This document shows positions 15,160-43,240 of a stretch of DNA of 43,281 bases, piece by piece; positions within the stretch are counted from its first letter, which is position 1, and the number at the start of each line of letters is the position of its first letter. Position numbers and translations under genes: made by a program. Source of the stretch: Lentilactobacillus sunkii DSM 19904 (GTDB lineage: Bacteria > Bacillota > Bacilli > Lactobacillales > Lactobacillaceae); assembly GCF_001435575.1 (NCBI RefSeq), contig NZ_AZEA01000018.1:1-43281 (forward strand), read 5' to 3'. The notes beneath the pieces are model-generated. The model made no database searches and was not told the DNA's origin. It saw only the letters and a program-made list of their open reading frames with translations.

Positions 15160-15550
15160 CTCTTTAAAATTACTTTAATTTTAACATAGTATATTCCTAA
15201 TGTTTGGGGAAGATTGAGAGGCATCTAGGAATCCAAACCAGCCCCGAATCGGCTATGAGAAAGGGATTGGCACGGTCAATAGACTGCATTGCGAAATTCA
15301 AAAGCATTATCATTGAACATTAAAAAAAAGAGTCTATTATAAGGGTTGGATGTACTTTACATCCATCTATTTGACCTAAATGAAAGCTTTATGCTTGCAT
15401 TGATCTTGTTATGGAGCCTACCAGTGCATTCCACGATTAAGTATCGGAAGCAAGAATTTACGATCTACCCCCAATATGTCTTTCAAGTTCAGATACTGAT
15501 AGGCCCTACTCCTAATAACGCCCAGCGAAAACTGGGTGTACATAAAACAA
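15160..15550. other. gene-free stretch upstream of addB
   Basis: I see no convincing gene here. It contains a small perfect hairpin GGATGT/ACATCC (about 15346-15362) and another CCCAG/CTGGG (about 15523-15538). A 77-codon open frame at 15346-15579 has no ribosome site and runs into hairpin repeat A, so I do not call it. No clear -35/-10 pair for addB was found. Confidence 0.5.
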
Positions 15551-15685
15551 GAGTGCGCAGCAAGCCGATTAGCTTCTGAGCATTAATTTGATAACGAGTT
15601 TTGATGCGCACTTAGCATCGGAACTCGTTATCGGATTAAGCGGAGGAAGCTGGCTTGCGAAGCACGTTTCGGCTATATATAAGTA
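15551..15685. repeat. hairpin repeat A (with 3' CACGTTTCGGC tail)
   Basis: GAGTGCG at 15551 begins a ~116-bp imperfect inverted repeat with arms about 15551-15608 and 15613-15667. They share GCAAGCC, GCTTC, TTAAT and GATAACGAGTT blocks. It ends CGAAGCACG and then reads CACGTTTCGGCTATATATAAGTA. Ends and tail match the other copies, while the stem sequence is its own. Confidence 0.75.
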
Positions 15686-15700
15686 GATCTACAAAGCAAA

Positions 15701-15812
15701 TACTGTAAGACAGAAAAACTATTGATGGACGCTTTTTGTTCATCGATAGTTTTTTTGTCTTACACAGTAGGGGTCAGGGTCGTCGGAACACATTTCGGCT
15801 ACATATAAGTAA
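15701..15812. repeat. hairpin repeat B
   Basis: TACTGTAAGACAG...CTATTGATGGAC pairs with a right arm ending CTTACACAGTA (15701-15769), with apex loop CGCTTTTTG. The tail GGGGTCAGGGTCGTCGGAAC is followed by CACATTTCGGCTACATATAAGT, one base different from the common tail. Confidence 0.75.
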
Positions 15813-15833
15813 AACTCCAAAAGTGAACTTCTT

Positions 15834-15917
15834 AGACCCCGGAGCATAACTGAAAAAATTTGGTGGTGAGCGTTTTTTGCTCATCACTAAATTTTTTTAG
15901 TTATGTAGCAGGGGTCT
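15834..15917. repeat. hairpin repeat C (in tandem unit 1)
   Basis: AGACCCC...CATAACT-AAAAAA-TTT...GTGAGC pairs with GCTCATCAC...AAATTTTTTTAGTTATG...GGGGTCT, an 84-base imperfect stem-loop with a T6 apex. Confidence 0.75.
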
Positions 15918-16146
15918 GGGCTGTCGCCAAGTAGGCTAGGCAGGCTTCCAGCCGGCCGTCGGAGCGTGTTTGAGAAGCAGCCAATACCAGATAATAAAAT
16001 TAGTGCACCAGAGTGTGACAAAGCCCGGTTAACCCCGGTGTATAAGGAAGGGGTTCCAAGTAGGCTAGACGTGTTTCACACGGTCGTTGGGGCTGCAGGA
16101 ACACGTTTCGGCTACATATAAGTAAAACTCCAAAAGTGAACTTCTT

Positions 16147-16230
16147 AGACCCCGGAGCATAACTGAAAAAATTTGGTGGTGAGCGTTTTTTGCTCATCAC
16201 TAAATTTTTTTAGTTATGTAGCAGGGGTCT
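16147..16230. repeat. hairpin repeat D (in tandem unit 2)
   Basis: Identical to copy C, displaced by exactly 313 bases. Confidence 0.75.
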
Positions 16231-16470
16231 GGGCTGTCGCCAAGTAGGCTAGGCAGGCTTCCAGCCGGCCGTCGGAGCGTGTTTGAGAAGCAGCCAATAC
16301 CAGATAATAAAATTAGTGCACCAGAGTGTGACAAAGCCCGGTTAACCCCGGTGTATAAGGAAGGGGTTCCAAGTAGGCTAGACGTGTTTCACACGGTCGT
16401 TGGGGCTGCAGGAACACGTTTCGGCTACATATAAGTAAAACTCCAAAAGTAAACCTCTTAGTCCCCAAAG

Positions 16471-16530
16471 TGTAAGACAGAAAATCTATCAATGAACGCA
16501 ACTTGTTCATCGATGGATTTTTTGTCTTAC
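16471..16530. repeat. hairpin repeat E
   Basis: TGTAAGACAGAAAATCTATC-ATGAAC pairs with GTTCATCGATGGATTTTTTGTCTTAC (60 bases). The stem closely resembles copy B but with several compensating changes. It sits just after the third partial tandem unit. Confidence 0.75.
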
Positions 16531-16582
16531 TTAATAGTAAATAACGATCCCAACCCCCAAACAAAAATTCACAATGTTTGAA

Positions 16583-19722: not shown

Positions 19723-21033
19723 ATGTTAAATTCAATTGCCAAGTATTTCGAGTTCGATGAGCGCCATACGAATTTTCGTACGGAAATCATCGCTGGAATT
19801 ACGACGTTCGTTTCAATGGTTTACATCCTGTTTGTTAACCCCAATGTGCTTGGAGTAAGCGGGATGGATAAGGGTGCCGTCTTCACTGCGACTGCCCTCG
19901 CTTCTGCATTTGGCTGTTTCATGATGGGCTTTATTGCCAACTACCCAATTGCCATTTCGGCCAGTTTGGGAATCAACGCCTTCTTTGCCTATTCCGTTGT
20001 TATCGGTATGAAGGTTTCATGGCAGACTGCTTTGGCCGGCGTCTTCGTTGCATCAGTGATCTTTATGATTTTGACCGCATTGAAGCTCCGTGAAAAGATC
20101 ATCGATTCTATTCCAGCTGATTTAAAAGCCGCAATCGGTGGTGGTATCGGGCTGTTCATTGCCTTTATTGGGTTAAGTGACGGTGGATTAGTTCAAGCTA
20201 ACAAAGATACCCTTGTCAGCTTGGGTTCCCTTCACGTTGGAACAACTTGGCTTACGATCTTCGGTCTGTTAATTACCGTTGTCTTGATGAGTATGCGAGT
20301 TCCTGGTGCCATCTTCATTGGAATGGTTTTAAACGCCATCCTGGGTATGTCCACTGGATTAATTCCACTCCCTCACCAATGGGTTTCATCAATTCCAAGC
20401 TTGAAGCCAACCTTTGGTGTTGCTCTGTCACACGTTGGCGATATCAATTCTGTTCAATTAATTGTTGTTGTCCTGACGTTCCTGCTGGTAACCTTCTTTG
20501 ATACCGCTGGTACGTTGGTTGGATTGGCTGAACAAGCAGGATTCATCAAGAATAACAAGATTCCTCGAATCGGTCATGCATTGATCGCTGATTCTTCAAC
20601 CATGCTGGTTGGTTCAGTTCTGGGAACTTCACCAATGGGTGCCTTCGTTGAGTCATCAGCCGGGATCGCTGTCGGTGGCCGAACTGGATTTACCGCCATT
20701 ATCGTCGGAATCCTCTTCATCTTGGGAACCTTCTTCTCACCACTTCTGACTGTTATTACCAGTCAAGTAACCGCACCAGCTTTGATCATCGTTGGTATCC
20801 TGATGGCTCAGGCACTTAAAAATGTTCATTGGGAACAATTCGAAATTGCAGCCCCTGCATTCATTACGCTTGTCGGTATGCCATTAACTTACAGTATTGC
20901 GGATGGTATCGCCCTTGGCTTCATCACTTACCCAATCACAATGATTGCCGCTCGTCGTGGAAAAGAAGTCAGTGCCATGATGTACGCTTTGGCGGTAGTG
21001 TTTGTGATTTTCCTGTGGATTTTAAACAATTAG
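19723..21033 (+). CDS. guanine/hypoxanthine (AzgA/PbuG-type) permease
   Basis: This 436-residue polytopic protein (12 or more hydrophobic segments) belongs to the AzgA branch of the NCS2 nucleobase:cation symporters. It imports adenine, guanine or hypoxanthine for salvage. Diagnostic stretches are RTEIIAGITTFVSMVYILFVNP near the N-terminus, ISASLGINAFFAYSVV, GGGIGLFIAFIGLSDGGLV and the conserved FFDTAGTLVGLAEQAGF about two-thirds along. The ribosome site is AGAGGGAG. No purine riboswitch is seen in its leader. A long hairpin repeat begins at its stop codon. Confidence 0.93.
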   Translation: MLNSIAKYFEFDERHTNFRTEIIAGITTFVSMVYILFVNPNVLGVSGMDKGAVFTATALASAFGCFMMGFIANYPIAISASLGINAFFAYSVVIGMKVSWQTALAGVFVASVIFMILTALKLREKIIDSIPADLKAAIGGGIGLFIAFIGLSDGGLVQANKDTLVSLGSLHVGTTWLTIFGLLITVVLMSMRVPGAIFIGMVLNAILGMSTGLIPLPHQWVSSIPSLKPTFGVALSHVGDINSVQLIVVVLTFLLVTFFDTAGTLVGLAEQAGFIKNNKIPRIGHALIADSSTMLVGSVLGTSPMGAFVESSAGIAVGGRTGFTAIIVGILFILGTFFSPLLTVITSQVTAPALIIVGILMAQALKNVHWEQFEIAAPAFITLVGMPLTYSIADGIALGFITYPITMIAARRGKEVSAMMYALAVVFVIFLWILNN

Positions 21034-21159
21034 AGTGCGACGAGACCCGGGTTGCCCCCGGAGTGTAAGCCAGAAATTTTAAGGATGAGCGGTCCTTGTT
21101 CATCGTTGAAATTTCTGGCTTACACAGTAGGGGGCAGGGTCGTCGAAGCACGTTTCGGC
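21033..21159. repeat. hairpin repeat F (after azgA-type gene)
   Basis: GAGTGCGACGA...CCC...TGCCCCC...TGTAAGCCAGAAATTT on the left pairs with AAATTTCTGGCTTACA...GGGGGCAGGGTCGTCG...GCACG on the right. The apex is GATGAGCGGTCCTTGTTCATC. It ends CACGTTTCGGC (21149-21159). The left end overlaps the permease stop codon. This copy shows most clearly that the whole unit is one inverted repeat. Confidence 0.8.
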
Positions 21160-41115: not shown

Positions 41116-42329
41116 AAAATTTAACTGAAGAAAAACAAACCAAACGTCCCGGGATCTTCGCCAATACATACGGCGGCCAGTACATCCCCGAAACCTTAAT
41201 GACTGAACTGGAAAAAGTCGATAAAGCTTTTCACACCTTAAAGGATGATCCCGAGTTCAAGGCCGAATTACACGACTTGCTCGTCAACTACGCCAACCGG
41301 CCATCACTTCTCTACTATGCCAAGAACATGACTGAAGACCTCGGTGGTGCCAAGATTTACCTTAAACGAGAAGACTTAAACCATACCGGTGCCCATAAGA
41401 TCAATAACGTGATCGGCCAGGCATTGCTTGCCAAACATTTAGGCAAAAAACGCCTGATCGCCGAAACCGGTGCCGGCCAACATGGTGTAGCAACTGCAAC
41501 AATTGCTGCCCTGTTCGGCATGGAATGTGAAATCTTCATGGGTAAAGAAGATACGGACCGCCAAAAGTTAAACGTCTACCGGATGGAATTATTAGGTGCC
41601 AAAGTTCACCCAGTGACAACCGGTTCAATGGTTCTCAAGGATGCCATCAATGCCACCCTGCAGGAATGGGCCAGCCGTTCCGAAGATACTTTCTATGTAA
41701 TGGGTTCTGCCGTTGGGCCTTATCCGTTCCCAGAAATGGTCAAACATTTCCAAAGCGTGATCAGTAAAGAATCCAAGCAACAGCTCAAAGCCAAAGAAAA
41801 CACCTTGCCCGATATGGTCATCGCCTGTGTCGGCGGTGGTAGTAACGCCATCGGTAGTTTTGCTGATTACATCGACGACCCCAGCGTTAAATTGGTCGGA
41901 GTTGAAGCTGCCGGCAAAGGTGTCAACAGTGATAAGACAGCTGCTACCATCGAACGTGGAACCGTTGGGATTTTCCATGGAATGAAGTCTTTGTTCCTTC
42001 AAAACGAAGACGGCCAAATCAACCCGGTTTACTCAATTTCCGCCGGCTTGGATTACCCTGGAGTCGGTCCGGAACATGCAGCGCTCGCAAAAGAAGGCCG
42101 AGCTCAATATGTCGGCATCACTGACGACGAAGCTGTTCAGGCATTTGAATACATCGCTAAAGAAGAAGGCATCGTTGCAGCCATCGAAAGCTGTCATGCG
42201 GTTGCTTACGTTGAAAAGATTGCCCCAACCATGTCCAAAGATCAGATTATTGTCTGCACCCTCTCAGGACGGGGTGACAAAGATGTTGCCAGCATCGCCA
42301 AATATAAAGGAGTCGATATCGATGAGTAA
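41112..42329 (+). CDS. trpB: tryptophan synthase beta chain
   Basis: This 405-residue PLP enzyme condenses indole and serine to tryptophan. The PLP lysine is in [14 protein letters not shown], the phosphate loop is [12 protein letters not shown], and LKREDLN and [13 protein letters not shown] are typical of the TrpB1 type that pairs with TrpA. Near the end it has [10 protein letters not shown]. The start overlaps trpF by ATGA and the end overlaps trpA by eight bases. Confidence 0.97.
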
Positions 42330-43113
42330 TTTATCTGAAATTTTCAAAAATCATAAGGCTTTTATCCCATTTGTCGTTGCTGATGACCCGGATTTTGATA
42401 CCACAGTTGCCAACATTGTTGCGTTAGCTGAAGGCGGCGCTGACATTGTTGAAGTTGGAATCCCCTTCTCAGACCCAATCGCTGACGGTGGCGTGATCCA
42501 AGCTGCCGATTTGCGGGCATTTGACGCCGGCGTCCGGACCAAAACGGTCTTTGAAATCGTTGAGGCCGCTCGAAAACAAACCGATGTGCCAATCGTTTTC
42601 CTGACGTATTTAAACATCGTCTTCAAATACGGTTACGATGCTTTTTGTCAAAAGTGTCAGGAGTTAGGCGTTTCAGGATTGGTCATTCCGGATATGCCTT
42701 ACGAAAGTCGGGAGGACATCGTACCAACCGCCGATAAATATGGTATCGACATCATTCCATTGATCGCCCCAACCTCCGGCCACAGGATCGAAAAGATCGC
42801 CAAAGCTGCTTCCGGATTCATTTACGTCGTTTCCTCACTGGGGATTACCGGTGAGCGAAACGAGTTCTTCAATGGCTTGAAGGACTTAGTCGCAGAAATC
42901 AAGAAGTACACCGACGTCCCAACCGCAATCGGCTTTGGGGTTCATACACCCGAGCAGGCCAAAACAATGGCCGGCATTGCGGACGGCGTGATTATCGGCA
43001 GTGCAATTGTTGATATTGTCGCCAAGCAGAAACAAAATGCACCAAAGGCTGTTGAAGAATTTACGAGATCGATTCGGTCTGCCATTGACGAAACTGAAAA
43101 AGCTAATGTATAA
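42322..43113 (+). CDS. trpA: tryptophan synthase alpha chain
   Basis: This 263-residue TIM-barrel subunit splits indole-3-glycerol phosphate and channels indole to TrpB. The catalytic Glu and Asp are in [19 protein letters not shown]; the mobile loop is [12 protein letters not shown]; the phosphate site is [11 protein letters not shown] and [10 protein letters not shown]. The start is ATG 42322 behind AAAGGAG; a longer open frame back to 42076 is antisense-free but lies within trpB and is not used. It is the last gene of the operon, followed within 7 bases by a long hairpin repeat. Confidence 0.96.
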
Positions 43114-43119
43114 AAATAG

Positions 43120-43240
43120 GAGTGTGATAAAAGGCGGTTTTGCTACCGTAGCATAACCTAGGATTATTTTTTTGAGCTGAAGGCTCGGAAAGTCATCCTA
43201 GATTATGCATAGGGAGCAGCCTTTTGGAACACGTTCTGGC
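43120..43240. repeat. hairpin repeat G (after trpA)
   Basis: GAGTGTGATAAAAGGC...AGCATAACCTAGGATTA pairs with CATCCTAGATTATGC...GCCTTTTGGAACACG around the apex GAGC-TGAAG-GCTC. The tail is CACGTTCTGGC (43230-43240), a variant of the common 3' motif. It sits like a terminator or 3' stabiliser for the trp operon. Confidence 0.75.

Follow-up and report, generated by a model that had tools for sequence, protein, structure and literature searches.

The window analysed here, a stretch of 43,281 nt of Lentilactobacillus sunkii DSM 19904 (contig NZ_AZEA01000018.1), carries nine copies of a hairpin element, all on the forward strand. Seven of these had been listed in the original prediction, made from the sequence alone, and each is present at the position given there; the other two were identified at 16011 and 16324. 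Copy A (15551..15673) is a full element of the GCAGCAAGCC/GGCTTGC-stem subtype and is preceded by a conserved putative RNA gene rather than by a stop codon. Copy B (15675..15799, listed as 15701) and copy C (15826..15925, listed as 15834) both have a GATGAAC-type apex and a degraded 5′ end, and the 3′ end of copy B reads CACATTTCGGC. A short module, CCAAGTAGGCTAGG...CCGTCG, recognized by eye and by pattern, is inserted beside copy C (15927..15961). Copy X (16011..16112), absent from the earlier list, has full ends and contains the short module (16056-16086) in place of the apical hairpin; it obtained 34.2 bits with the covariance model described below and a weak folding z-score (-1.72). There follow a second copy of C (16139..16238, listed as 16147), again with the short module inserted beside it (16240..16274), a second copy of X (16324..16425) and copy E (16466..16537, listed as 16471), which consists of the core hairpin alone and is degraded at both ends. 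The copy at 16147 is a repeat of the one at 15834, within a near-exact tandem duplication at 15785-16397 (300 nt, spacing of 313 nt, one mismatch), each unit of which comprises copy C, the short inserted module and copy X; its identity rounds to 100% in one repeat family and to 99% in another.

The last two copies lie at the ends of protein-coding genes, as had been claimed for them. Copy F (21033..21159), a full element, lies downstream of an azgA-type permease gene (Xan_ur_permease, 19723..21033, forward strand), and it overlaps the TAG stop codon of azgA by a single base, the G with which the element opens. Copy G (43120..43240), a full element of a more distant subtype, begins 6 nt past the stop codon of trpA (42076..43113, forward strand); an element similar to it is carried by genome G014. 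RNA folding z-scores were -9.65 at 15551, -7.98 at 15701, -8.29 at 15834, -7.91 at 16471, -10.32 at 21033 and -6.03 at 43120. The predicted GAGTG 5′ end holds at 15551, 21033 and 43120, and also at 16011 and 16324, but is not clear at 15701, 15834, 16147 and 16471. That the elements belong to no named family agrees with our Rfam search of the window, in which the only hit above the gathering threshold was a T-box leader elsewhere (RF00230, 38282-38549), upstream of the gene cluster whose last gene is trpA; at a permissive E-value, 15 sub-threshold hits fell on the hairpins, mostly to microRNA models. Among the titles listed by a search of the openly available literature, none was on this repeat family. 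The region just upstream of copy A (15320-15546) starts with a promoter-like TTGAAC-TATTAT, has no good Rfam match and is conserved at 79-94% identity in the loci of nine of 13 relatives (those of the other four may not cover the stretch); we regard it as a candidate small RNA gene.

The element is typically about 125 bases long (about 100-130 bp, more with inserts), and full-length matches to the model mostly span about 120-128 bp. A typical copy starts with AGAGYGYG, continues into a long interrupted stem of variable sequence and then into RYRYRTTT, and finishes with a partly conserved tail that resembles CGGCTAGRTAAAAGT and is moderately conserved. The base preceding GAGTG is A in 109 of 124 motif hits, and 14 of the remaining 15 are internal mis-hits. 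By eye, the commonest 3′ end is CACGTTTCGGC, and the ends go together by subtype: GAGTGYG with CACGTTT, GTGTGCG with GAGCATAGCTC and GTGAGCG with GAGCTGTCCT. Two subtypes have other 3′ ends; the subtypes also differ in the outer stem and in the apex, which is of the type GATGAACG...TTGTTCATC, TTTCTAAG...AAACCC...GGGTTT or ATTA..ATAAC (all by eye). On the 5′ arm, about three bases form a recurrent G-rich bulge. The CCAAGTAGGCTAGG...CCGTCG module was found at several insertion points, within and beside several copies, and also at loci L012, L017, L021 and L026; with its GTAG and CGTC it looks like a second, smaller mobile unit. On a separate note, three contigs of the own genome (G000), L049 (C21), L074 (C5) and L076 (C14), break at the same sequence, GGTCACTTCATAA, with an element directly after it whose first base is C, not G, and a fourth, probably L077 (C27), starts with the last five bases of GGTCACTTCATAA; this sequence may mark one end of an insertion sequence with the element as its target.

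To follow the family beyond the window we used a covariance model, R1, built from nine copies of the own genome that had been aligned without structure. In the own genome it reported 106 rows at E-values up to 1, which after removal of 35 weaker opposite-strand rows correspond to at least 71 places. This is a lower bound, since scoring covered 150 of the 638 first-look candidates and the model missed two window copies, those at 15551 and 43120; four of the 71 places score below 30 bits, and some are partial. The 5′-end pattern, with one mismatch allowed, gave 72 hits in the own genome and two with the reversed control. The element is thereby short, non-coding and dispersed in many copies, as a MITE is. 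Within the genus it was found in 17 of 24 genomes, the own included, with 0 to 86 matches each (both strands counted). For the family and the order, filters were stricter and few candidates were scored in each genome, which makes the counts lower bounds: at least 51 of 301 Lactobacillaceae genomes and at least 12 of 40 genera, the own included, and at least five of 295 genomes in the order search, four of them in Lactobacillaceae and one outside. This last genome (G491), from another Lactobacillales family, carries related elements in tandem at four loci (L234-L237). The exact element pattern matched 45 stretches, among which records close to the window's own were possibly excluded, all of them from L. 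otakiensis, kefiri, parabuchneri, parakefiri, rapi, parafarraginis, dabitei or one Lactobacillaceae MAG. By BLAST the element was detected in 44 of 72,556 plasmid records, 40 of these typed as mobilizable, in Lactiplantibacillus, Levilactobacillus, Latilactobacillus and Lacticaseibacillus hosts. The three records that we inspected represent two neighbourhoods, mgtC and corA, and the 44 seem to represent few loci. The plasmid records had no match to an element from the genome outside the family, and the element had none among 50,697 phage records. The family is present beyond chance, dispersed as the original prediction had it and not confined to one locus.

The placement of the element is not random either. 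We defined elements by their end motifs, excluded second copies in a cluster, and asked whether a same-strand open frame of 90 or more codons had its stop codon no more than 8 bases away. In loci chosen for hits to the model or the pattern, rather than by a whole-genome pass, such a stop was found for 32/51 elements of the own genome, 22/36 of L. kefiri, 42/61 of the named loci (a set that includes L. kefiri contigs and is not independent of the preceding one) and 7/15 of other relatives, versus 39/2550, 24/1800, 51/3050 and 19/750 random positions in the same loci (1.3-2.5%). The element's 3′ end coincided with an opposite-strand stop in none of the four sets. The commonest register is +1, in which a TAG stop shares its final base with the first G of the element (11 of the 32 own cases). 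A larger own set gave 42 of 67 copies at a same-strand stop, compared with 1.5% of random positions from the smaller own locus set, in support of the predicted location at gene ends. The rest of the 67 comprise seven copies that are second in a cluster, three right after a U-tract, two with a stop 9-40 bases upstream, two in open frames and 11 others; of these last, two come after TPP aptamers and one after a putative RNA gene. G013, G001 and G016 share a locus at which the stop is supplied by the element itself (AGA GTG TGA or AGA GTG TAA, frame read by eye), and in another genus a copy starts 6 nt past a tRNA-Asp gene. The placement is keyed to stop codons plus other ends of RNA units. RelE-type enzymes cut stop codons on the ribosome at this same point (TA|G), and any link to the +1 register is speculative.

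Elements adjoin TPP aptamers at L075 1467-1700 and L270 1240-1446 (complement), and also at L145, L147 and L205. The aptamer of L270 is above the Rfam threshold and that of L075 below it (48.3 vs 54.3), and both matches extend about 12 nt into the element. The genes behind these leaders are a thiM-like hydroxyethylthiazole kinase gene, in three species as read by eye, and a TenA-like gene, in two. As the element in the two leaders lies between the aptamer and what reads, by eye, as a separate terminator, these riboswitches must function despite a 120-nt hairpin within their switching region.

The two arms of the stem change together, as had been proposed. In an alignment of 62 copies from the own and related genomes fitted to R1, 98.1% of 2820 cells were paired and 43 of 46 pairs showed double changes, while pairing fell to 39-51% when the partner was slid by one to three columns. 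Because this alignment was fitted to the model, we repeated the count with plain MAFFT alignments by type, which leave out the 70 of 137 elements assigned to no type: 96.3%, 96.9% and 97.8% of cells were paired for 29, 28 and 10 sequences, with 33/44, 23/44 and 19/45 doubly changed pairs, respectively.

Comparison between species revealed that the same sites may hold different elements. At the azgA 3′ end, reading by eye showed full elements of differing subtypes in G000, L. kefiri, L. otakiensis and G004, where the element lies a few bases further along; G014, G001 and G016 retain remnants, and the eleven remaining loci bear no trace of an element. When 57 elements of the own genome were compared with 32 of the L. 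kefiri loci, 16 sites, paired by the identity of 200 nt upstream only, were occupied in both. At seven of the 16 the same-site element ranks 1-5 of 88 nearest (first at four), and at nine it ranks 23-78 of 88 with an identity of 0.54-0.74; at those nine a copy elsewhere is closer (0.71-0.92), and the upstream identity is 77-94%. Judged by these identities, sites are shared while the element differs in subtype. Second copies in a cluster number seven in the own genome, five in L. kefiri and 17 in the named loci, and at one site the own genome has an extra copy and L. kefiri a single one. These observations suggest that a new element lands next to an old copy and that one of the two is then lost; alternatively, the same base may have received insertions in parallel, or gene conversion may have acted.

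Most copies are in sense orientation at the downstream edge of a predicted transcribed unit, usually on the stop codon. Taken together, our results point, with a modest degree of confidence, to a Lactobacillaceae family of short mobile repeats, non-coding and non-autonomous, each a self-contained hairpin that is carried where a transcribed unit ends downstream. A different explanation would be a vertically inherited, immobile 3′ UTR or leader RNA element, selected for a function in each gene, whose similarity among copies comes from common function and gene conversion. The strong covariation, the sense-strand G-U excess described below and the retention of sites between species at a precise position all agree with this explanation, but it does not readily accommodate a range of 0 to 86 matches per genome (both strands) within one genus, tandem copies and a near-exact duplication of 313-nt spacing, plasmid copies in other genera, and a differing subtype at nine of 16 shared sites, and we consider it unlikely.

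Co-variation of the arms could also arise in DNA, if template switching during replication (quasi-palindrome correction) kept the arms of a palindrome matched and the RNA fold were irrelevant. Such correction accounts for simultaneous change in both arms, and internal deletions, as at the plasmid copy discussed below, are typical of palindromes. It should not, however, favour G-T over A-C on one strand. On the strand matching the upstream gene, the R1 alignment has 265 G-U cells, 11 A-C cells and 43 other mismatches, or 165:11 for G-U:A-C without three near-fixed G-U pairs. With near-fixed G-U pairs omitted, the MAFFT alignments gave 68:10, 45:11 and 10:1 (sum 123:22) under the sense-strand structure, and 33:9, 32:10 and 7:1 (sum 72:20) when the structure was predicted on the antisense strand. 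R1 and its structure were derived on the sense strand, which leans the count towards G-U, and the antisense-predicted structure leans it the opposite way; the cells are not mutually independent. Since the excess persists with the antisense-derived structure, the strand bias is real in direction and amounts to something between about 3.6- and 24-fold. The favoured strand is the one equal to the mRNA of the upstream gene, whether as RNA or as single-stranded DNA, and the bias is not predicted by DNA palindrome correction alone. The recurrence of one-arm bulges and internal loops also speaks against correction. Part of the asymmetry could come from transcription-linked mutation or from a folded sense-strand DNA intermediate, and the sense-strand fold is probably what is kept by selection. 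The weaker 72:20 ratio lowered our confidence in mobile repeats and raised that in the DNA-only explanation, which we nevertheless hold to be improbable.

The original prediction offered a miniature mobile element as one possibility. The dispersal and the conserved ends are in line with this, and the family is probably mobile, but neither a partner transposase, in a search for the Y1 family and among ORFs beside copies lacking the 3′ end, nor a target duplication was found, so that mobility is something we infer. Pairwise comparison of species yielded no clean empty site with a target duplication, the element-free relatives being too diverged or carrying remnants. At the plasmid mgtC locus (L221-L229), an element lies 5 nt past mgtC in plasmid pKB290-2 of L. 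brevis, and the hairpin-free mgtC alleles of five L. plantarum and L. paraplantarum plasmids still retain the element's 3′ tail, and therefore look like internal deletions rather than empty sites. Of 110 motif hits (the 124 minus the 14 internal mis-hits), 57 have TA directly in front of the element. The ends of the element pair with each other (helix 1), but the 3′ end has an unpaired tail without a 5′ counterpart. Among the 65 of the 72 5′-end hits that were examined, no autonomous parent with the same ends was seen; ten of the 65 lacked the 3′ end, and one neighbouring ORF inspected at each of these ten belonged to no transposase family.

As mobile repeats, new copies would be inserted by an enzyme encoded elsewhere and transcribed as a self-contained hairpin within a 3′ UTR or leader, where they would persist because they are nearly harmless there and may protect the RNA 3′ end against nucleases. 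New copies could land next to existing ones, in line with the tandem pairs seen, and recombination between the shared ends would remove one of the two, exchanging the subtype at a fixed site. A more speculative version, to which we give a low likelihood, is that a host enzyme docks and exchanges the repeats in the form of folded single strands, in an attC-like manner without cassettes or an integron integrase. Untranslated, unstructured RNA would start after a stop codon, tRNA, aptamer or terminator, an R-loop there could leave the sense DNA strand single-stranded, and a host enzyme might insert or swap the folded hairpin. If true, this would explain the single orientation, the placement at edges, the sense-strand G-U signal and the exchange of subtypes at fixed sites.

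The location at gene ends would also suit intrinsic transcription terminators, possibly spread by mobility like the pneumococcal SPRITE, and a terminator-like hairpin with a T-run is indeed present in sense within 19 of 43 elements. It is, however, present in antisense in 12 of the 43. Downstream of the element a terminator-like hairpin was found in 14/43 cases, versus 40/159 for element-free ORFs (3/40 in shuffled sequence), three own copies stand directly behind a U-tract, and the TPP leaders retain what reads as their own terminator after the element. The similar frequency of downstream terminators and the TPP leaders speak against the plain reading, which the original prediction had raised, of the element as the simple terminator of its gene; as many copies hold T-runs, they could end some transcripts, but terminators as the general explanation are very unlikely.

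Least probable of all are attC-like sites, at which a tyrosine recombinase would act on DNA hairpins folded from the sense strand. Such sites share the architecture in outline (conserved ends, variable stems, bulges, location at gene ends) and would allow differing subtypes at fixed sites, but the own genome has no integron integrase above cut-off (TIGR02249: eight matches, none over it, with the control also at 0/14), cassette arrays are absent from the loci read, and the commonest 3′ end, with GTTTCGG, does not fit by eye the attC terminal boxes RYYYAAC / GTTRRRY, which rules out membership of the integron attC sites proper.

Small palindromic repeats are common in bacteria, and the reasons for their location are poorly known. 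The present family combines an almost single-base register with stop codons, stems that co-vary strongly and show a strand bias, a tolerated position next to riboswitch aptamers, and subtypes that differ at fixed sites between sister species. With it, how repeats choose and keep a site becomes directly testable in food-fermenting bacteria, and with the covariance model many hairpins of lactobacilli that had no explanation can be named and searched for. Among known systems, EFAR of Enterococcus faecalis (2007) reportedly comprises modular palindromic miniature insertion sequences of many sequence types that integrate at stem-loops, and it is by this description only that it resembles the Lactobacillaceae element. 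We know of no stop-codon docking or subtype exchange in EFAR. EFAR is named in PMC3733652, in which GTAG and CGTC REPs are described as palindromic, 20-40 bp long and close to coding regions, with GTAG REPs tied to RAYT transposases; neither Lactobacillus nor Firmicutes appears in its main text. Like REPs, the element is a palindrome near coding regions, and its small inserted module also carries GTAG and CGTC, but it is about 125 bp long, and a REP/RAYT origin is ruled out by the lack of the Y1 (REP-associated tyrosine) transposase PF01797, with no match in the own genome and 5/14 in the control. SPRITE of Streptococcus pneumoniae is a hairpin repeat enriched near CDS 3′ ends for which a target duplication could not be established, according to the passages available of PMC3049150; as described there it is rich in AT (GC content 28%), resembles a terminator and has a long T-rich tract, in contrast to the stable ends, the bulges and the lack of a terminal T tract of our element. 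BOX repeats of the same species are small, interspersed and modular (125 copies in one strain), tightly folded with paired terminal repeats, over-represented between convergent genes, and possess terminal inverted repeats and target duplications (same passages, PMC3049150). Compared by description only, the likeness is to small interspersed modular folded repeats of a Firmicute; the terminal inverted repeats and target duplications described for BOX could not be shown for our element, and those passages mention neither a single-orientation stop-codon register nor stems with paired changes at fixed sites (PMC3049150). The family is best read as a further kind of BOX/EFAR/REP-type repeat.
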